Shown here piece by piece: positions 4,623 through 56,772 of a DNA stretch of 64,000 nucleotides. How positions within the stretch are numbered: the first letter of the stretch is position 1; each line of letters begins with the position of its first letter. The stretch is from a virus. Made by a program: the position numbers and the translations under genes. The DNA lies in IMG/VR virus record IMGVR_UViG_3300032249_001164, positions 1 through 64,000 of that record, one strand, 5' to 3'. The notes below the pieces were generated by a model. The model ran no database searches, was not told the origin of the DNA, and worked only from the letters and a program-made list of their open reading frames with translations.

Positions 4623-4820
4623 ACTTCTAGCGGTTGCGATGTGTCGATTCTTGGTTCTCATTCTTTGTTTCTCCTTGTTGATTAACTGCATTTTTGCCTT
4701 CAGCCTCTCGGCTTCGTAATCTGGTCGCCGTTCCTGCATTTGCCTTAAGGCCTCCTGGTAGCCAGGAGCCTCAAGCTCTGGAAATCTCTTAAAAATTTTA
4801 CTCCAGTTAGGTGCTGTCAT
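4557..4820 (-). CDS. Small basic, charged helical protein
   Basis: An 87-aa protein, MTAPNWSKIFKRFPELEAPG, with a long charged helix (residues about 25-65, rich in Glu, Lys, Arg and Gln) and a basic end (NKGRRKKG). Its ATG overlaps the TGA of the helicase gene (ATGA at 4817-4820), so it is translationally coupled to DnaB. Small basic proteins placed beside a phage helicase may be loaders or DNA-binding accessories, but there is no recognisable domain. Confidence 0.65.
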   Translation of the reverse strand: MTAPNWSKIFKRFPELEAPGYQEALRQMQERRPDYEAERLKAKMQLINKEKQRMRTKNRHIATARSLVAADNANSLFSANKGRRKKG

Positions 4821-6253
4821 CTCAGTAAGTTGCTACCCCAGACAACAGAGCTTTGTAGATCTATGCAACACTGCAGCGTACCGCATTCTCCATGCCTGTT
4901 TTTAGCAACAGAAACGGCCAGCTCGTATTTATCTTTTCCCCTGTCATAGTAATGTGGTCGAAGGAGAAACATGACAATATCCGCATCTTCTTCAATTCTA
5001 CCGGAAGCGCGGAGGTCTGACATATTTGGCATTTTATCGGTCCTATTCTCCACGCCCCTGTTAACTTGACTCAACAAGAAAATGTCTATACCTGTACTTG
5101 TTCCGAGCCTTTTCAAAGCTTTTGTAACATGGCCAATATTAGATGCCTCCGTGTTTTGAGCATCACCAGAGCAGCCCTCTATAAGTTGCAGGTAATCAAT
5201 AAAAACAGCTGAAAGATTTTTTCTAGTCTTAGCAAGAAGTTTTATTTTTGCTGAAATACTTTTAATGGTTTCAGATTCATCAAAGACATGCAATCTTTTA
5301 ATCAGCCTGGAGTTCTGGTAACCTTCAAGCCTCGTCCTTTGGGCCGACGTGTAATTCCTTAGCCTCAAATTGTGGGATCGAATTGGATCGGTAAGTTCTC
5401 CCGAAGAACGAAGGCTCATGTAGTCAAGGCAAGCGATTGATTTATACTGAATCTGTTTTTTTGACATTTCTAAACTAAAAAAAGCAACATCACAGTGTAT
5501 ATCGGCTAACACGGTTGCAAGGTAAATTGCAAATGTAGTCTTGCCCATGCCGGGCCTTCCCGCTAGCACCACCAGGCGACCAGAGTACGGTGAATCCCTT
5601 TTTGCAATTCCACCCTGTATTGCATCGTCAAGCACGCTAAGGCCGGTCGGGATTACAATATCCTTGGGTAAAGGTTGAAGGGCTTCTTCAATAGAAGATT
5701 CCCAGTCGTCGTCCCTTTTATCAAGAGTTGAAGCGCTATACCATATTTCCTGCTGCCTCTCTATTAAAGATGGTATGCTTTCTTCAAATACCTTTTGATC
5801 GGGAGTGCTAGTAAGGGCTAAAGCAATCTCCTCTGCATTAGCCTTAAGACTTGTTCTTGCACATTTCAACCTCCAAACAGGAACAATGGAATACAAAGAT
5901 TCAATACTAAAAAACATTGAAGGGGACTCGGCAACCTCTTGGATGTACTGACAATCATCTTGATGCCCCATAGATAGAAGTAACTTTTCTGCCATCACGG
6001 CAATACTGCCAGGCACCACCAGGGAAGATTTGACTGAATCAAGCGCAATCTTTTTAATTACGTGAAACAATGCTTTCCGATGGTTTCCAGTAAACCACTC
6101 TTGATTAACCTGTGTTGCAATATCACAAAGCTCAGCTGTAGAACCTTGTTCACCTTCAAGATAAAAGATGCACGTAGAGAGAAAAGAGTCTTGTATCTCG
6201 CTGGTATCCCAGGTATTCATCTGGGACAGGATTGCAAAATTTCCTTCGCTCAT
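4817..6253 (-). CDS. dnaB: DnaB-like replicative helicase
   Basis: A 478-aa protein with an N-terminal helical domain (FLSTCIFYLEGEQGS... at residues 24-40, a shortened DnaB N domain), linker, and RecA-like motor. Walker A is GRPGMGKTT at residues 232-240, followed by FFSLEMSKKQI (the DnaB H1a pattern F-S-L-E-M). Walker B is AVFIDYLQLIEG, then LLSQVNRGVENR and SDLRASGRIEEDADIVMFLLR (the arginine-finger/H4 region). It unwinds DNA at the phage fork as a hexamer. It is flanked by the replisome-organizer gene upstream and the small basic gene downstream. Confidence 0.95.
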   Translation of the reverse strand: MSEGNFAILSQMNTWDTSEIQDSFLSTCIFYLEGEQGSTAELCDIATQVNQEWFTGNHRKALFHVIKKIALDSVKSSLVVPGSIAVMAEKLLLSMGHQDDCQYIQEVAESPSMFFSIESLYSIVPVWRLKCARTSLKANAEEIALALTSTPDQKVFEESIPSLIERQQEIWYSASTLDKRDDDWESSIEEALQPLPKDIVIPTGLSVLDDAIQGGIAKRDSPYSGRLVVLAGRPGMGKTTFAIYLATVLADIHCDVAFFSLEMSKKQIQYKSIACLDYMSLRSSGELTDPIRSHNLRLRNYTSAQRTRLEGYQNSRLIKRLHVFDESETIKSISAKIKLLAKTRKNLSAVFIDYLQLIEGCSGDAQNTEASNIGHVTKALKRLGTSTGIDIFLLSQVNRGVENRTDKMPNMSDLRASGRIEEDADIVMFLLRPHYYDRGKDKYELAVSVAKNRHGECGTLQCCIDLQSSVVWGSNLLR

Positions 6254-7069
6254 TTAATTTAGTGTGTAGTTAATTGGTGACATCGCGGGTTTACCTTGGT
6301 TTCCCGCTTTGGCTACACCATTCTCCTGTCCCAGCTTGTTAATAGTTTCCTTGTGCCCAGCAAAACCAAGCGACTGCCAATTTTTCTCTGCTACATATTC
6401 GCAATAAAGCTTTAAGGTTCCAGTGCTCTTGGCATACTCAAGAGCACGCATGGTGGAACTTGTAAGTTCAGGTCGAAGCTTGTGTTTTTTTTCTCTGTTG
6501 TCAAGCCATTTAAGCAAATGCTCGCGGTAGGGCTGCAACCACTCGGGCAGCTCGATGGCTGCTGGCTTCGGCTTCTGCGTGGTTCGCCTGGGGGGCAGTG
6601 GGGGGTTTTCTTCTAGATGGTTTTCTTCTAATGGTTTTCTTTCTAATGGTCTTCTATTGCGTCCGGGTTTCCCGGCGTCCGGTTTTCCCGGACACTGGTT
6701 TCCCGGCGTCCGGTTTTCCCGGACGCTGGCTGTGGCTTCTGCCGCAGGGGCCAACGAAGCCACAGCACTCGGATCCGGCCTATCGGTGACGCTGTAATGC
6801 TCGCCAACTATCTGGCCTGCTGGGTTCCTGTTTTTTACATTTACCAAATACCCAAAACATCTCAATTCAGAGAGGCCCGACAAAACCGCATCTCTACCCT
6901 CGGTTCCATGTTCAATAATCCAGGCTCTCGTAAACTTAAAACCCTTGCTGTGCGAAAGACAAACAGCAAGGATACCCTTGGCCTTGTAGCTAAGGCGCTT
7001 ATCCCTCAAGGCGTCATTAAGAACAATTGTAAAACTGTTACCAGCGCCGTTGTTTTCAAAGCTTTCCAT
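6254..7069 (-). CDS. Replisome-organizer / replication initiator-like HTH protein
   Basis: A 271-aa protein. Residues about 10-100 (NSFTIVLNDALRDKRLSYKAKGILAVCLSHSKGFKFTRAWI) form the winged-helix domain common to phage replisome-organizer proteins, which bind the origin and recruit the helicase. The middle is a low-complexity linker (GNQCPGKPDAGKPGRNRR, then repeated LEENPL-type units) encoded by short DNA repeats (CGGTTTTCCCGGAC twice in 6670-6720). The C-terminal 90 residues resemble a DnaD-like helical segment (LPEWLQPYREHLLKWLDNR). Its stop is directly followed by the dnaB ATG. The repeats in the gene could serve as origin binding sites, as in lambda O (inference). Confidence 0.8.
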   Translation of the reverse strand: MESFENNGAGNSFTIVLNDALRDKRLSYKAKGILAVCLSHSKGFKFTRAWIIEHGTEGRDAVLSGLSELRCFGYLVNVKNRNPAGQIVGEHYSVTDRPDPSAVASLAPAAEATASVRENRTPGNQCPGKPDAGKPGRNRRPLERKPLEENHLEENPPLPPRRTTQKPKPAAIELPEWLQPYREHLLKWLDNREKKHKLRPELTSSTMRALEYAKSTGTLKLYCEYVAEKNWQSLGFAGHKETINKLGQENGVAKAGNQGKPAMSPINYTLN

Positions 7070-9011: not shown

Positions 9012-10799
9012 ATGCCAGGCACGAGACTGATCGGGCAAAGCGCTAGCGGTCGCGACAATGCCGCAATGGTCACCGACAGCGGAGCCCTCAAGGTGGAGGT
9101 AGACGGCGGTGGCGCAGGCGGTAGCGACCTTGCTGCTACCAATGCCTTGCTCGGGCCTATTGACGAAGCGGCTCCAACTACTGACACCGCCAGCTCTGGT
9201 CAAAATGGTAGGCTTCAACGGATTGCTCAGCGACTAAGCTCGATTATTCTTAAGTTGCCGGCGTTTGGTACTGCCGGTGCGCCTAGTTCGGATGTGTTGA
9301 CGGTGCAAGGGGCTTCCAGTGGAACCATCCTACCGGTTGCTCCAAGGGTTACCCTTGGTGTTGGTAACGCAGATGGCAGCACTCAGCGAGTGACACTAGC
9401 TAGTGACAGCCCGGCGGTAATATCGCTGGCTGCGATAGCCAGTAGTCAGCCAGACGTGCTAACTGCGCTAGCCGCACCATCCAATCATGGTTCAGTGGTT
9501 CGACATGCGCAGTGTCTTCAGTGGAAAGCGGATTTATCTAGTACTGGGCCTGGCTTATTGGCGCCAGAGCTAACACTGCGGTCACCGTCTTCGCTATTTG
9601 TGTCGCAAGCTAGTGGCAACCTGATTGTTAACCCGGGCACAGTCGCAAATGCTGAAATGCTTTGCAGGTCTTCTATATCATTTAAGGGATCAATAGCTCT
9701 ACGGTGGCGTTTACTGCCATCCCAAAGGATAGCAAACAGTAATTTAATGGTTTTGCTTGCCGATAGGATTGGTGAAAACCTTAGCTATGTATGTACTGCC
9801 ACGAATGTAACCGTAACGCTTCCTGGCCACTCATATACGTCAGCCAACGTTGGCCAGTCTATGATGTTAGGCGCTATTACTGGCTCGGCTGGTATTCCTG
9901 GGCGATACGCTATTGCCAGCGTTAGCGCAAACACTGTTGTCCTTACCGTTGCTGGCTGGCCAGCTACTGGTAGCGGCACGCTTGACTTGTTTGGGCACAG
10001 CTACGTGCAACAACTTTACTCTGGTACTGCAAACGCTGCGCTTGACGCCCAGCGTATGGGTTGGAATACTGGTTCTATAGTAATAACTGCCACTACCTAC
10101 GCCACTGCTCATGCTGCATCTATTCAGTTAGACGGCAGAACCGCTACAACCTGTCGAACGGGAACAGGGGATGTGCTTGTGTTATCGGCATCAAGATCAG
10201 ATATTGTACCAGATGAAAATAAGGATTTATTTTTGTATCTGTGGGCTCACAATGGCTCTACAGCACCAGCTTCTGCAACAACGTGGACTATATCGTCTTT
10301 ATCGCTGGAAGAGAATATTAACATCCCCTTATACCTAGCGGGTATGAAGCAGTCGGGGGTTGGATCCCCAGTAGCGATGACAGGTAGCGTTGCGGTGTCA
10401 GCTTTCTCAACCGGTGCCGCACTATCTAATGACGTTGGTGTTCAATACCGTGCTACCGTCACAGGTGGTGCCACGCCCGCCAAGGTAATATCTTCGGTGG
10501 CAAGCCCAAGCTCAATACTTAAAGTTGGAGCAACACGACCGCTTGGGTGGAACCTGGTAAATACTACGGCTTTGTGGGTATACGGCAAGCTTTACAACTC
10601 AACAACAGCAGGGGCTGGTGCTTTGGGAGTTACTATTCCAATTGCAATTCCACCCAACGGAATTAACTCCCATTTCAGCGAAGGTGGGCTGACAGGCTTT
10701 TCTACCGGCCTTACGCTTACCACCGTAACAGGCGCTGCTGACTCTAGCGCCACGGCAGCGCCTGATGGTGCTATAGTTGGTTCGGTGTTTTTTGCTTAA
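9012..10799 (+). CDS. Virion/tail-associated structural protein
   Basis: A 595-aa protein, low in charge and rich in Ser, Thr, Ala, Gly and Val. The N-terminus (DNAAMVTDSGALKVEV, then LLGPIDEAAPTTDTASSGQN, LQRIAQRLSS, RVTLASDSPAVISL) has the pattern of phage structural proteins with repeated 'P-D-x-A-A-P-x-x-D-T-G' and 'L-A-S-D-x-x-A' motifs. The C-terminal 110 residues (LGWNLVNTTALWVYGKLYN ... GGLTGFSTGLTLTTVTGAAD) match a beta-rich domain often found at the end of virion proteins. It follows the sigma gene by 15 nt on the plus strand, away from the main minus-strand structural block, so it may be a decoration or receptor-binding protein expressed separately. Confidence 0.7.
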   Translation: MPGTRLIGQSASGRDNAAMVTDSGALKVEVDGGGAGGSDLAATNALLGPIDEAAPTTDTASSGQNGRLQRIAQRLSSIILKLPAFGTAGAPSSDVLTVQGASSGTILPVAPRVTLGVGNADGSTQRVTLASDSPAVISLAAIASSQPDVLTALAAPSNHGSVVRHAQCLQWKADLSSTGPGLLAPELTLRSPSSLFVSQASGNLIVNPGTVANAEMLCRSSISFKGSIALRWRLLPSQRIANSNLMVLLADRIGENLSYVCTATNVTVTLPGHSYTSANVGQSMMLGAITGSAGIPGRYAIASVSANTVVLTVAGWPATGSGTLDLFGHSYVQQLYSGTANAALDAQRMGWNTGSIVITATTYATAHAASIQLDGRTATTCRTGTGDVLVLSASRSDIVPDENKDLFLYLWAHNGSTAPASATTWTISSLSLEENINIPLYLAGMKQSGVGSPVAMTGSVAVSAFSTGAALSNDVGVQYRATVTGGATPAKVISSVASPSSILKVGATRPLGWNLVNTTALWVYGKLYNSTTAGAGALGVTIPIAIPPNGINSHFSEGGLTGFSTGLTLTTVTGAADSSATAAPDGAIVGSVFFA

Positions 10800-48910: not shown

Positions 48911-50557
48911 TCAAGCCCTCGCCAGCGTTACGCTCTCGATCTGACCCTGGTACTTACCTGACCGATCCTCGTAGCTAGTGCCGCATGGCTCACCACTGAA
49001 GAACAGAGCCTGTACGATTCCTTCGTTGGCATAAATTCGTACATCGGCATCGCTACTATTGCTGAACTCCAGTGTTAAATGGCCATGCCACGAGTTACCT
49101 GTCCATGAAACCCTGCCTCGATGGCGCATTAAGAAAACGTGTGACGGCACCGTTAAGTCGTACACAAAGCCAGAGTACGGAATTTCTTCACAGTTTTCGG
49201 GTGAAATCCTTGACGGACTCGGATTGCGAGAGGAAAAGCGACAAACGTGGCTGGCAAATGTTTTTCCGTTAATGGTGCTTTCTTTTGCCCAGCATGTGGC
49301 GTAGTCTCCAATCTTGAGGCATATCTCCTGAAAGTCGTCAACCAACTGCTTGCTAACGCTGACATAGGTAGAGGTTTGGATATTTCCGTCAGAATGCATC
49401 ATGCCCTCGCGGATCAAGGCGAGTTGATCAGCTGGAAGATTGATATACTCCCTGGGAATGCGCTTATTGCGAGCGCCCCTGAATTGCATTAAGTAAAGGC
49501 AAGTTGCCTTGTGGTGAAATGCAAAACCGTACCCTGTCTCACTAAAGTTGACACCAAGAGATTGCAGGACTTCCTTGAAATAGGCTCGTTTGCGCTCTTT
49601 CGTGACAACAGCGAGCTTGATGACGTAGTTGCCGCCTGATTGCACATAGGTCGAGCCATCCCCCAGCCAGCACCCCAAGAATCTGAGCCATGCATTTGTC
49701 GGATATTCGCGCTCACCAATGGTCACAGTATTGCCAATCCTGGAGCCAAGCCAGTCAACATCCCGAGACAGGTAGAGATTGTGCTTGCCAAATACTGTCT
49801 GAGCCTCAACACGCTCAAACGGGTAGGCCATTGACGCCTTGCGACGGACGCCTGCAACTCGTCCAGGTGCATAGCCCGCCTCGGCCTCAATCCGCCGCTT
49901 GGAGATCGCTGCCCACATCATGTGGCCCGGAGTTACAACCTGCGAAACCACTTTGCTCTGAAATGAGAGCATTTTGCCATTAAAGTGATAGCGGTGGAAA
50001 TCTTGCACCGGCTGGTAGACGGCTTTCGTGTTATCCAGACACATAACCTCCTCGCCAGTGAGAACTTCTGAAATTAACTTCCATCCAGTTCTGCAGAGGA
50101 CTTCGGTATCTTCAGAGAGACACGCTTCACCCGGAGTTAGATTAGCAATTACCCCGCACCTAGCGTATGTACTTTTTCCAATGAAGAGAGCTGTAATATT
50201 AGGTGGTATTCTTAGGTGTTCTAGCGCTACGCCTAACCCGTAACTATGGTGCGGCAAGACGAAAAACTTTCCCCACCTGTCTTCCTGGAGTTCTACTGGC
50301 TGCAGGTTGATTTCACTGAATGCTTTTGGGTTGACCACCGTACCAGGTACGTGCCTGAAAACCAAAAACTCTTTTGGAGATAAGCGCAAGTCATAGCCGT
50401 AGCTACTGGCGCCGTAGCTAATGGCGGGTATCACAAGCTGACTGGCACCGTCTAGCGTTTCGCCGTGCTCAATACGACGAATCAGTTTAGGCACGAAGGG
50501 CGTAATCATGCCCTTTTCTGCCAGTAGCTTAATGGCTGTGTCGTTAAGGATGGTCAC
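48911..50557 (-). CDS. dcd: dCTP deaminase containing an intein
   Basis: A 548-aa protein from a GTG (GTGA overlap with the upstream gene). Residues 1-145 and 489-548 join to a normal dCTP deaminase of 205 aa: YDLRLSPKEFLVF, SYGLGVALEHLRIPPNITAL, IGKSTYARCGVIANLTPGEA, then SWHGHLTLEFSNSSDADVRI, YANEGIVQALFF, GKYQGQ. The intein interrupts between GEA and SWHGH, in the active-site region. The extein product would turn dCTP into dUTP (or dUMP in bifunctional forms) and so feed ThyX. Protein splicing is needed for activity. Confidence 0.92.
   Translation of the reverse strand: MTILNDTAIKLLAEKGMITPFVPKLIRRIEHGETLDGASQLVIPAISYGASSYGYDLRLSPKEFLVFRHVPGTVVNPKAFSEINLQPVELQEDRWGKFFVLPHHSYGLGVALEHLRIPPNITALFIGKSTYARCGVIANLTPGEACLSEDTEVLCRTGWKLISEVLTGEEVMCLDNTKAVYQPVQDFHRYHFNGKMLSFQSKVVSQVVTPGHMMWAAISKRRIEAEAGYAPGRVAGVRRKASMAYPFERVEAQTVFGKHNLYLSRDVDWLGSRIGNTVTIGEREYPTNAWLRFLGCWLGDGSTYVQSGGNYVIKLAVVTKERKRAYFKEVLQSLGVNFSETGYGFAFHHKATCLYLMQFRGARNKRIPREYINLPADQLALIREGMMHSDGNIQTSTYVSVSKQLVDDFQEICLKIGDYATCWAKESTINGKTFASHVCRFSSRNPSPSRISPENCEEIPYSGFVYDLTVPSHVFLMRHRGRVSWTGNSWHGHLTLEFSNSSDADVRIYANEGIVQALFFSGEPCGTSYEDRSGKYQGQIESVTLARA
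49094..50122 (-). other. Intein of 343 residues with LAGLIDADG-type homing endonuclease
   Basis: Encoded residues 146-488 of the dcd gene. Splicing block A: CLSEDTEVLCRTGWKLI (Cys1); block B: near VVSQVVTPGHMM (T-x-x-H). The endonuclease blocks are FLGCWLGDGS (first LAGLIDADG helix) and IREGMMHSDGN (second). Block F/G: SGFVYDLTVPSHVFLM ... VSWTGN followed by Ser+1. The penultimate residue is Gly rather than His, and the +1 residue is Ser. Such inteins spread by homing. Confidence 0.9.
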
Positions 50558-51009
50558 TTTGTTTTTGGGGGTTGTGGAAGAATGGGCAGTATTCCATCAG
50601 CGACTAAGGCTTGACGAATTAGTTCGCTAATGGTTGTGTGACGGGATTTTGCGGCATTGCAAAGGCGCTTGCGCTCATTTGTGTTGACACTTATTACAAC
50701 ACGTAGCGACCTTTTGGTGCCCCGTTCATCTGTTTTTTGCTTTTCCTGCAAGTCTTGTTGTTTGAGGAGTAGATAGCGGAGGAAAGAGGTTGTTCTAGGC
50801 TTGACTGGGGCATGGCTTTTGTTATTTGAGTTTTGTGTAGTTTGGTTGATGTGTTCGCATGGTGGGCCGAACCATGCCTCATCCTTTTCCCTGGTTCGCC
50901 AGACGTGGCCACAGGATCTACAGCATCGACGGCGAACTATGCTTTCAAAAGTGTCGTGCCTGCTTTCTTTGACGCAGATCGACACACTTCCGCATTCAGG
51001 GCAAAGCAT
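50554..51009 (-). CDS. Zinc-ribbon plus ribbon-helix-helix regulator
   Basis: A 151-aa protein. Residues 1-40 (MLCPECGSVSICVKESRHDT, then IVRRRCCRSCGHVWRTRE) match the N-terminal zinc ribbon of NrdR, the ribonucleotide reductase repressor (C3/C6 and C30/C33; R-R-R-x-C-x-x-C-x-x-x). No ATP-cone follows. Instead, after a linker, residues about 98-140 (SLRVVISVNTNERKRLCNAA, SRHTTISELIRQALVADG) form a ribbon-helix-helix. It lies just before the dCTP deaminase, so a role in nucleotide gene control is plausible. Confidence 0.7.
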   Translation of the reverse strand: MLCPECGSVSICVKESRHDTFESIVRRRCCRSCGHVWRTREKDEAWFGPPCEHINQTTQNSNNKSHAPVKPRTTSFLRYLLLKQQDLQEKQKTDERGTKRSLRVVISVNTNERKRLCNAAKSRHTTISELIRQALVADGILPILPQPPKTK

Positions 51010-53496: not shown

Positions 53497-54099
53497 TTAC
53501 TTTTTAGCGTAGAAGTCTCGAACTAATGCGATGCCACTAGGTCGCATAACAGCGAAGCGACCGGCCACGTTAGCCACTTGAGCTAACAGGTTAGTCTGAC
53601 CGCTGCCTGTCAGAACTTGCGACCATTTACGGGCTTTTTGTAGTTGGGGCGCTGTAGCTAGGACCGTCAGTAGTACCGGGACTGGCAGTAAGCCACCATT
53701 GGCAGCGCTTTCGCCAGCGTGCAGGCGGTGCCCTGCCCAGTCATTTTGCAATGCCGCCCAAATGACTAACAGCAATGGATCATGGCGCCTTGGCGGACAT
53801 ACAGGGCCGTCTAGGGCCGATAAATCCTTTGGCGCTGCCACAAAGGCCGGCTCACCCGCGATCTGGGCGCCCGGTCCTCTGGCGGGGAACCGTGCGGGAA
53901 GCTCCATGGGAACGGCAAGCGCTGCGGCAGCCGATACGGTGGCCGGTGACCAGGCCACGGGGAGAACCGCTGGCTTTGGCTTGGCAGATGCAACAACAGC
54001 AGACTGTCTCATTGCAGCGATCATCGCATCGAGCGATAGCAGCAGTCCAGAATCATCAGGTTCTGGCGCAGATACAACTTTCTTGGGTGCGCTGGTCAT
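53497..54099 (-). CDS. Hypothetical protein with helical hydrophobic C-terminal domain
   Basis: A 200-aa protein. The first 100 residues are Ala/Pro/Val-rich and poorly structured (SAAAALAVPMELPARFPARG), then RHDPLLLVIWAALQNDWAGH, LLPVPVLLTVLATAPQLQKA and LLAQVANVAGRFAVMRPSGI are hydrophobic helices. It ends FYAKK. Unlike neighbouring proteins in composition. A good promoter lies upstream. Not recognised. Confidence 0.6.
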   Translation of the reverse strand: MTSAPKKVVSAPEPDDSGLLLSLDAMIAAMRQSAVVASAKPKPAVLPVAWSPATVSAAAALAVPMELPARFPARGPGAQIAGEPAFVAAPKDLSALDGPVCPPRRHDPLLLVIWAALQNDWAGHRLHAGESAANGGLLPVPVLLTVLATAPQLQKARKWSQVLTGSGQTNLLAQVANVAGRFAVMRPSGIALVRDFYAKK

Positions 54100-54352: not shown

Positions 54353-54550
54353 TTAACCTAAATCTCTTAAAGTCTTCAGTTCAGTAGCAACGGCGAGCCG
54401 CCAAACTATCACTACGCCAAACCACAATTCAATCAGCCAACGTGCAACGTATAAAGTATAGCCGAGCGGGATAGTGAACATAACAATTATCGCGTACTTT
54501 GTAGCGCAAACCCTATGTAAATACAGTTTGATGTAGGACCTGTAACCCAT
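54353..54550 (-). CDS. Small membrane protein
   Basis: A 65-aa protein, MGYRSYIKLYLHRVCATKYA, with two membrane segments (IIVMFTIPLGYTLYVARWLI and LWFGVVIVWRLAVATEL). Its first codons lie within the start of the heptanucleotide array (54542-54550). It may be real and its coding start was fixed by the array, or the frame may be chance; the strong hydrophobic pattern favours a real gene. Confidence 0.5.
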   Translation of the reverse strand: MGYRSYIKLYLHRVCATKYAIIVMFTIPLGYTLYVARWLIELWFGVVIVWRLAVATELKTLRDLG

Positions 54551-54891
54551 AAGCTGTAAGGTGTCAATCGTAACTTATGCCACGTAAAGTGCAAGGCATA
54601 AGGTGTAACTAGTAACCAGTAGCTAATAGTTTGTAAACTGTAAACTGTAAACTGTAACCTGTAAGGTGTAACCTACAACATGTAACCTGTAACCTACAAC
54701 ATGTAACCTACAACCTGCAACGTGTAACCTGTAAGGCGTAACGTGTAACCTGTAAGGCGTAACCTACAAGGTGCAACGTGTAACCTACAACCTACAACCT
54801 ACAACCTACAACCTGCAACCTACAGCCCGTAGCGTGCAAGGTGCAAGGTGCAGGGTGTGGCGTGTGGCGTGTGGCGTGTGGCGTGTGGCGT
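54542..54891. repeat. Heptanucleotide repeat array (50 consecutive units, consensus GTAACCT)
   Basis: From 54542 the plus strand can be read as 50 successive 7-mers with no insertion or deletion (54542 + 49x7 = 54885). Most fit G/A-T/C-A-A-C/G-C/G-T: GTAACCT (the commonest), GTAAACT x3, GTAAGGT, ACAACCT (five, four of them consecutive), GCAACGT, GCAAGGT x2; the last five are GTGGCGT. The array begins within the 65-aa gene's first codons. It resembles the short tandemly repeated heptamers (STRR) known from cyanobacteria. Confidence 0.92.
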
Positions 54892-55125
54892 GAATGATTT
54901 AATGTGTAAGGTGAATGGCTAAGCGAATGCAATTCAAGGCGCATACTGAGTGAATGGCTTTTAAGCTGTAATCCTGAATGAATGGTGAATGGCCGCGGCA
55001 TGTAACATCAAATGAATGGCCTCGGCAGATAATATTGCATGAATGGCTTTAGGGTTAAATGGGTGAATGCAATTTTGAATGAATGGCCTCAGGGTTGAAT
55101 GGGTGAATGAATGGCCGCGATACTG
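54892..55125. repeat. GAATGGC-rich repeat cluster
   Basis: Directly after the GTGGCGT units, the motif GAATGGC occurs about eight times, often in the form TGAATGAATGGCC followed by GCGG, TCGG or TCAGG. Spacing is irregular (roughly 14-49 nt), unlike the strict heptads before it. The cluster ends at 55125, and a few GTAACCT-type heptads (GCAACCT GTAACCT GTAGAG) follow before the 55152 gene stop. Confidence 0.75.
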
Positions 55126-55151
55126 AACCTGCAACCTGTAACCTGTAGAGT

Positions 55152-55724
55152 TCAGGGTTCATCGAAAGTCCCTGGATCTTCTAAATCGTTGCCATCAGGA
55201 TCAAGATCAGGCGATGGCAAGGCAGAAGGTCGATTCTTCTCAATTGCATTAAAGTAAGTGCTAACTAGGAAACCTCTTACCTGTCCAGATCCAGCCCTGA
55301 GCAAGAAAGGACTGAGAATGTAAAGTTTTTCCCCTGTTCTTGAGTCTGTAATAGGAACCAGTAAGTACCGCTCTTTTAGTCTCCTAATACTTGGGTACAA
55401 TGTTTTTCGCTTATGTCCAAGTATTTCAGCAACTTTTTGTGTCGTTAACCTGCAACGTCCTGTTCTCCAGTCTGAGTGAATAATGTATACCATCAAGACG
55501 ACAAAATCTTTATTTTGAAGTTTATTCGCTGAAATATCTAAAATTAAACTGCGAAGTCCACCAACCTGAAGGCTTAGGAACCTATCTCCATCGTCGGGGT
55601 CCAACCCCGAATCCTCAAGGTCCAAGCCTTGACCAATGCCGTTTTGGTATAAATTGATACCGTTTTCGCTGGATTCAGTCACAATCGAGTCATACCAAGG
55701 GGTTTGGGCTCTGTGCCGCAACAC
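55152..55724 (-). CDS. Winged-helix protein, replication initiator/RepL-like
   Basis: A 190-aa protein from a GTG (55724). Residues about 75-170 (NKDFVVLMVYIIHSDWRTGR, LTTQKVAEILGHKRKTLYPS, IRRLKERYLLVPITDSRTGE, KLYILSPFLL) form a winged helix: a first helix pair, HTH, then wing. The order 'L-x-x-x-D-F-x-V-L-x-Y-I ... Q-x-x-A-x-x-L-x-x-x-x-x-T-x-x-x-S-I-R-R-L-K-E' and the wing R-T-G-E-K-L-Y-I-L-S-P resembles RepL-type plasmid initiators and phage HTH regulators. Ends are acidic and disordered. It borders the heptad array on its 3' side. Confidence 0.55.
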   Translation of the reverse strand: MLRHRAQTPWYDSIVTESSENGINLYQNGIGQGLDLEDSGLDPDDGDRFLSLQVGGLRSLILDISANKLQNKDFVVLMVYIIHSDWRTGRCRLTTQKVAEILGHKRKTLYPSIRRLKERYLLVPITDSRTGEKLYILSPFLLRAGSGQVRGFLVSTYFNAIEKNRPSALPSPDLDPDGNDLEDPGTFDEP

Positions 55725-55977: not shown

Positions 55978-56772
55978 TTAGTCACTATCAGCTTCTTCCA
56001 GGGCAATTAGCAAATTATCGACACCAAGGGCACTACTTTGAAGGCTCTTACCAACATCAGCAAGCTTGGCTGCAACATTTAACATACCAGGTAAATCTCT
56101 TGTATCTAGCGGTTTATCGTCATCTAACATTTTGGACAGTGTAGAATTCGCCAGTAATGCAATACGTGCAGCATTCAGGGTTAATTGCTGACCTAAAGCC
56201 TCTTGTTCTTGGCGATATTTCTCTAATTTACGAATATGAAGGTCATGTTTAGCATCTTGAGACTGTTTCATCTTCTTTACAAGCTCTGCCCTGTCGTAAT
56301 CCTCGGTTCTACGCTTCCAACTGTTCTTTGCACTTACTTTACTTAGTGCCGAGGGTGTAACGTTGGATACCACTGAGATATATTGAAGGGAACGCCCCCC
56401 ACCGTACATACAATAAAGTTTGAACAGCTCGAATTCCTTGTCAGTTTCGTTAGTAGCGAGGTAGCTTCTCTTATCCCAAGAGTTGCTAGAAGAGGTGGTG
56501 GTAGTTAGGGTGTGATGTACCGCGAGTAAATCTTTAGTAGTTGGGGGTGCATCGTCAGGGTCAACCTCGATAGATTCATCATCCATCAGGGCTTCCTCAA
56601 GTGCGTCCTTAAATGTTTCACCTTCACCTTCCTTAACATCATCCTCAATCTCTCCGTATTCATTGAGATTTCCTGTAAATTCTTCAACTTCACCTTCGTC
56701 GGTGAATCCCTGTAGATCATTCCTTAAGGTATCAGCAGCTTCATTCAGGTGCTCAAAATCTTGGGGGTTCAC
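55978..56772 (-). CDS. Terminase small subunit-like HTH protein
   Basis: A 264-aa protein from a GTG (56772). The first 85 residues are acidic and disordered. Residues about 100-170 (RSYLATNETDKEFELFKLYC, GGGRSLQYISVVSNVTPSAL, SKVSAKNSWKRRTEDYDRAE) match the terminase small subunit pattern 'E-x-x-x-A-F-x-x-Y-x-x-x-G-x-x-R-S-L-x-x-V-A ... W-x-x-R-x-x-x-Y-D'. A helical C-terminal part follows (LHIRKLEKYRQEQEALGQQL). Small subunits recognise the packaging site. It lies 13.5 kb from terL and is transcribed with the tiny-gene operon. Confidence 0.6.
   Translation of the reverse strand: MNPQDFEHLNEAADTLRNDLQGFTDEGEVEEFTGNLNEYGEIEDDVKEGEGETFKDALEEALMDDESIEVDPDDAPPTTKDLLAVHHTLTTTTSSSNSWDKRSYLATNETDKEFELFKLYCMYGGGRSLQYISVVSNVTPSALSKVSAKNSWKRRTEDYDRAELVKKMKQSQDAKHDLHIRKLEKYRQEQEALGQQLTLNAARIALLANSTLSKMLDDDKPLDTRDLPGMLNVAAKLADVGKSLQSSALGVDNLLIALEEADSD

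Follow-up and report, generated by a model that had tools for sequence, protein, structure and literature searches.

The sequence analysed here (hereafter the window) comprises 64 kb of a virus record of 79,539 bp, whose terminase, capsid and helicase genes bear out the phage origin that the preliminary description had assumed. Its large terminase is closest to that of Cyanophage KBS-S-2A, with 38% identity. The locus of interest is a non-coding gap between two genes of the minus strand. One encodes a winged-helix DNA-binding protein (55152-55724) that weakly resembles RepL and phage O-like initiators as well as MarR-like proteins, and that has homologues at the same place in related phages; beyond it lies the gene for the small terminase subunit, TerS (55978-56772, also minus strand). 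The other, with its start on the downstream side of the gap, encodes the 200-residue "DFYA" protein, which has no assigned function (53497-54099). Six relatives have matches to the DFYA gene, at 33-65% and over a large part of it, and G026 has a positional counterpart; it is a real gene, and the competing plus-strand open reading frame is its shadow.

Within this gap the plus strand from 54542 to 54891 reads as 50 successive heptamers in register, as had been described, the number being that of the assembled contig. The consensus is RYAANST (R = A/G, Y = C/T, S = C/G): position 1 is only G or A and position 2 only T or C, A prevails at positions 3 and 4, C or G at positions 5 and 6, and T at position 7. 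At least four of the five diagnostic bases of RYAA..T are present in 41 of the 50 units (background 4.7%), including every one of the 28 contiguous units of the array core (54626-54821, plus strand). Units 1-13 are degenerate but phased, and 10 of these 13 still reach four diagnostic positions or more against the same 4.7% background. The unit GTAACCT, which had been said to dominate, is indeed the commonest, but it accounts for only 9 of the 50 units, and there are 27 distinct 7-mers in the array. Mismatches to it at positions 1 to 7 number 13, 16, 7, 11, 17, 28 and 10, and the variation is thus mainly at positions 1, 2, 5 and 6, as previously noticed. The last five units are the identical GTGGCGT copies (54857-54891, plus strand) already reported, and they are probably the most recent local expansion. 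The heptamer phase extends shortly beyond 54891 (GAATGAT, TTAATGT, GTAAGGT, GAATGGC), and three extra units (GCAACCT, GTAACCT and GTAGAGT; 55131-55151, plus strand) abut the winged-helix gene at its stop codon.

The autocorrelation that had been proposed as a check gave an identity of 0.70 at lag 7 for 54542-54891, with 0.62-0.68 at lags 14, 21 and 28 and about 0.19-0.26 at the remaining lags up to 30. This 0.70 is also the value of the best real 350-bp window at lag 7, compared with a maximum of 0.38 among 100 Markov-simulated windows at lags 5-11. Tandem Repeats Finder counts 27 copies of a 7-nt period at 54632-54821, and at 54855-54892 it finds GTGTGGC repeated perfectly. The array has stop codons in all six frames of its two strands, on which ground a coding role was rejected, and neither Rfam families nor tRNAs were found in the window. 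Outside the locus there is merely a slight lag-7 excess, and the idea that intergenic DNA is built of heptamers throughout was rejected on that account; the phage genomes each have one main tract and a few mini-arrays, not many dispersed copies.

The heptamers have companions. An array of 14 TGAATG(G/C) boxes, all on one strand, occupies 54891-55113 (plus strand), and such boxes are found at the locus in all eight relatives examined, including G020, which has no heptamers. There are 8-14 boxes per locus; over the nine loci one strand has 106 of them and the opposite strand 4, and TGAATGGC is rare outside these loci. The second companion is a 14-bp element, GCGGGATAGTGAAC (54466-54479, plus strand), which reads GTTCACTATCCCGC along the direction of transcription and is dispersed on one strand only, mostly in intergenic positions. 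A degenerate copy, CCGCGATACTGAAC, read from the sequence and compared with the other elements, lies at the opposite end of the locus (55115-55128, plus strand). The element is asymmetric; in the array-bearing phages it is always on one strand, often just past a stop codon, and in most relatives one copy is at the array or close to it. The window has this element or a close variant at 54466, 57591 and 61389, and the full record has another near 66754. By analogy it looks stoperator- or promoter-like. The stoperators of mycobacteriophages (PMC9283540) are likewise short, asymmetric, situated in intergenic gaps and in one orientation relative to transcription; their sequence differs from GCGGGATAGTGAAC, however. 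The AT content beside the array, where an iteron-type origin would have its AT-rich unwinding region, is 0.7-0.77 in G003, G015, G002 and G026, and just about 0.6 in the window. The GC skew changes sign at the locus in all eight array-bearing records, but we have not used this as evidence because much of it may stem from the C-rich DFYA gene next door.

A scan with the large terminase yielded 32 loci, whose whole records were then taken and oriented alike. Nine records, the window's own (G000) included, cover the locus, and the search for the same array in related contigs that had been suggested found a 7-periodic tract in eight of them: G000, G002, G003, G012, G015, G024, G025 and G026. The ninth, G020, has the boxes without the heptamers. 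In the eight, lag-7 identity is 0.39-0.51 over 0.4-0.9 kb, with other lags at about 0.2-0.3; the excess is confined to multiples of 7, and lags 4-11 offer no comparable family-wide alternative period. In all of them the tract is 3' of the winged-helix gene and holds one constant position with respect to the small terminase, although in G012 the winged-helix gene is a positional counterpart only. Of 44 runs detected with a position weight matrix, 43 are on one strand and 1 on the other; in the related phages there are +1 register breaks between runs. Since the contigs stem from different metagenomes, the assembly artefact that the preliminary description had kept in reserve is very unlikely. 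Moreover, the retention of the tract at the same place and in the same orientation in related viruses suggests that it is probably a DNA control site, and not a product of chance or of assembly.

Some of the history of the array can be read from its units. Exact identity between units at a distance of one to three units is about 0.22, compared with 0.05 in shuffled order, and this greater likeness of neighbors implies that the units multiply locally. The closest pair of relatives, G003 and G015, is instructive. Their loci align without a gap over 474 bp at 92% identity, with 32 transitions and 6 transversions; their coding DNA is 91-96% identical, the region of the DFYA gene about 71%, and their winged-helix genes have no nucleotide match at all. 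That 474 bp should remain free of indels despite the diverged flanking genes speaks in favor of constraint and makes an assembly artefact less likely, although the shared locus could instead reflect recent recombination. The two winged-helix genes belong to different subfamilies although the regions are near-identical in other respects, and the boundary at the 3' end of the gene is sharp, a sequence pattern that suggests a cassette exchange. The array is nearly unchanged while this gene differs, which argues against the array being the partner of one particular winged-helix protein. The preliminary description had concluded from the unbroken register that there must be either recent expansion or selection. 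The clustering of like units and the preservation of place, strand and closest-pair length lend substance to that pair of options, but an intact register does not in itself require selection: duplication of whole units keeps it as well, as in orthologous cyanobacterial arrays whose lengths differ by 7 and 14 nt, and the related phages do have the +1 breaks.

Cyanobacteria, like some other bacteria, have an over-representation of heptamer repeats, whose function is not settled (PMC4692102, PMC4679880). The STRR, GGGNATC and TAACTGA arrays described there resemble the phage array in their 7-nt unit, intergenic location and mixture of unit types. On the other hand, STRR-type arrays are dispersed over chromosomes, whereas the phages have one main tract that is fixed in place and strand, has boxes alongside and consists of degenerate units that keep to a narrow consensus. 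The likeness to cyanobacterial heptamers that had been proposed is real at the level of the unit. An Anabaena metagenome-assembled genome has many GTAACCT arrays, a unit type common to phage and cyanobacteria, and RYAASST arrays occur in 12 of 291 sampled cyanobacterial genomes, 5 of the 12 having phage-like mixed units. In one orthologous cyanobacterial pair (L277/L278, from genomes G275 and G249), a mixed heptamer array directly follows a stop codon and forms a hairpin in the longer copy; the two copies differ in length by whole units (7 and 14 nt, in the two arms). As for the claim that such an array is unusual in a phage, it holds for the length, but short heptamer arrays are present in dozens of viral contigs; in the unrelated ones they adjoin various genes, two of them replication-related and several unidentified. 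No comparable tract is present in the inspected stretches of the isolated cyanophages S-SRP02, S-CBS2, S-CRES3 and KBS-S-2A, which have homologous TerS, TerL or winged-helix genes, although KBS-S-2A does have one 57-bp lag-7 stretch. A limited literature search found no description of a cyanophage with such an array.

All this considered, we regard the array as real, conserved, strand-fixed and non-coding, and probably a cis-acting control locus. The fuller reading that we favor from the sequence comparisons, though we would give it not quite an even chance, is that the array belongs to a protein-binding control locus of a cyanophage lineage, 0.4-0.9 kb long, non-coding and one-directional, with the heptamers as contiguous putative binding sites; the locus is possibly origin-like. 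The units of a predicted DNA-binding protein would then align on the DNA every 7 bp, so that three heptamers would make 21 bp, or two helical turns, and the locus would act, for instance, as an origin-type iteron array or by controlling the next gene from upstream. The heptamers themselves would arise via local whole-unit copying, after which selection would hold the degenerate consensus RYAANST. What speaks against such a control locus is the probable presence of an ordinary origin elsewhere (4817-7069), the retention of the boxes without heptamers in G020, and the turnover of unit sequences between distant relatives. A bolder version, which we consider rather improbable, would see here phage control DNA of a new kind, namely a long one-directional lattice of 28-50 contiguous degenerate 7-bp sites, cooperatively coated by a phage or host protein, that starts replication or switches downstream genes. 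Most of the variation among the lattice units falls on two pairs of positions, purine-pyrimidine at 1-2 and C/G at 5-6.

The alternative that deserves most attention, although it too is on balance unlikely, is that the array is a selfish or neutral satellite: STRR-like host heptamers would have entered the phage and spread by slippage or unequal exchange, without function, whole-unit copying keeping the register. The local clustering of like units, the five identical GTGGCGT copies at one edge with a degenerate edge opposite, the wide distribution of similar arrays in bacteria and cyanobacteria, and the 7- and 14-nt differences between orthologous cyanobacterial arrays are all what one would expect of it. 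Yet place and strand are fixed in eight phages, not a single unit has been gained or lost across the 474 bp of G003 and G015, and while most bacterial arrays that share the consensus are homogeneous, those of the phages stay degenerate inside narrow limits of sequence. The conserved neighborhood of TerS, which is better conserved among the relatives than the winged-helix protein, brings to mind a pac-type DNA packaging site recognised by the small terminase one gene away; short heptamer runs of the same consensus are nevertheless found elsewhere in these phage genomes, and we think such a site improbable. Much the same small likelihood attaches to an RNA-level element, in which the array would form a transcribed leader to the DFYA gene that an RNA-binding protein recognises. 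The strict orientation relative to the genes and the position upstream of the conserved DFYA start agree with this, and a role of this sort has been proposed for the TAACTGA repeats of Beggiatoaceae (PMC4679880), but the structure signal does not exceed that of unit-shuffled or column-shuffled controls (z mostly -1.6 to +1.2; the exception is a short run in G026, with z about -2). In addition, GCGGGATAGTGAAC stands between the array and the DFYA gene, and were it a promoter the array would not be co-transcribed with that gene.

If selection acts on exact 7-bp contiguity, its closest mechanistic parallel is the omega (ParB-pSM) site of plasmid pSM19035, where the parS heptads (5'-WATCACW-3') are unspaced 7-bp sites in non-coding control regions, their phasing matters, and the protein needs at least four ungapped contiguous repeats (PMC9499535). 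That site has 7-10 heptads in mixed orientation, as opposed to 28-50 in a single orientation and with another consensus in the phages. A heptad centromere or repressor site of the same kind, bound by a ribbon-helix-helix protein, could draw on an RHH-like domain encoded in the window (50605-50700; E 0.0013, below the family cut-off). The Omega family (PF07764) and the ParA-type ATPase (PF13614), however, are absent from all nine records, which contain only a weak match to another RHH in G000 and a 45-residue fragment match in G012; that fragment apart, the RHH domain is missing in the array-bearing relatives. Such a site is very improbable, and a binder of the RHH/omega type was rejected because the RHH protein is not conserved in the relatives. 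Least credible of all is the earlier model, titration by the array of a protein with binding sites in GTAAC palindromes of three promoter modules. GTAAC does occur 84 times on the plus strand compared with 32 for GTTAC, part of this excess coming from the array itself, but the palindrome GTTAC-N0-12-GTAAC is present once in the window, at 9348 and inside a gene, and an inverted-repeat scan of 53-64 kb, the region of the array, revealed one unrelated palindrome only and none of the GTAAC type near promoters.

The winged-helix protein has a faint but recurring likeness to replication initiators: its homologue in G002 matches RepL (PF05732, E 0.0028), the gene of G012 matches phrog_428, "replication initiation protein" (E 1.4e-5), and several others match O-like PHROGs, with MarR-type regulators scoring about equally. 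An AlphaFold2 model of the protein is a winged helix, confident just for about residues 50-167; among its fold matches the solved structures are mostly of the MarR type, and the viral ones include RepL-annotated proteins. On these sequence and model matches the protein is a putative replication initiator at most, and as binder of the adjacent array it is a candidate only; its homologue in Synechococcus phage S-SRP02 has no such array nearby. Iteron arrays of lambda O and RepL-type plasmids are also direct repeats beside a gene, here of the winged-helix type and with a weak initiator resemblance. Iterons, though, usually have units longer than 7 nt. Furthermore, the window already has a gene for an O-like initiator with internal direct repeats (6254-7069, minus strand; repeats at 6604-6729), adjoining a DnaB helicase gene (4817-6253), and the winged-helix gene swaps without a change in the array. 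The initiator-DnaB region (4817-7069) is a likelier candidate for an ordinary, lambda-type origin than the array locus.

While heptamer arrays of cyanobacteria are decades-old knowledge, the novelty here is a conserved phage locus in which they keep to one strand. A compact phage lineage with the array at a fixed place and strand makes a tractable system, with one locus and known flanking genes, and if a binder were found this would be a first lead on the role of 7-nt phased arrays.

Three other genes attracted our attention. The dCTP deaminase gene at 48911-50557 (minus strand) is interrupted by a long insert, the profile match covering mainly the first 145 residues; the insert is probably an intein, to judge by eye from intein-like residues. 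Next to it, a gene at 50554-51009 (minus strand), not found in the relatives, encodes an NrdR-like zinc ribbon fused to a ribbon-helix-helix domain. Finally, beyond the window, the full record (G000:C1:77188-77817, minus strand) encodes an AbrB-like (cyAbrB) regulator that scores below the curated cut-off and has homologues in G002, G012, G026 and G020.
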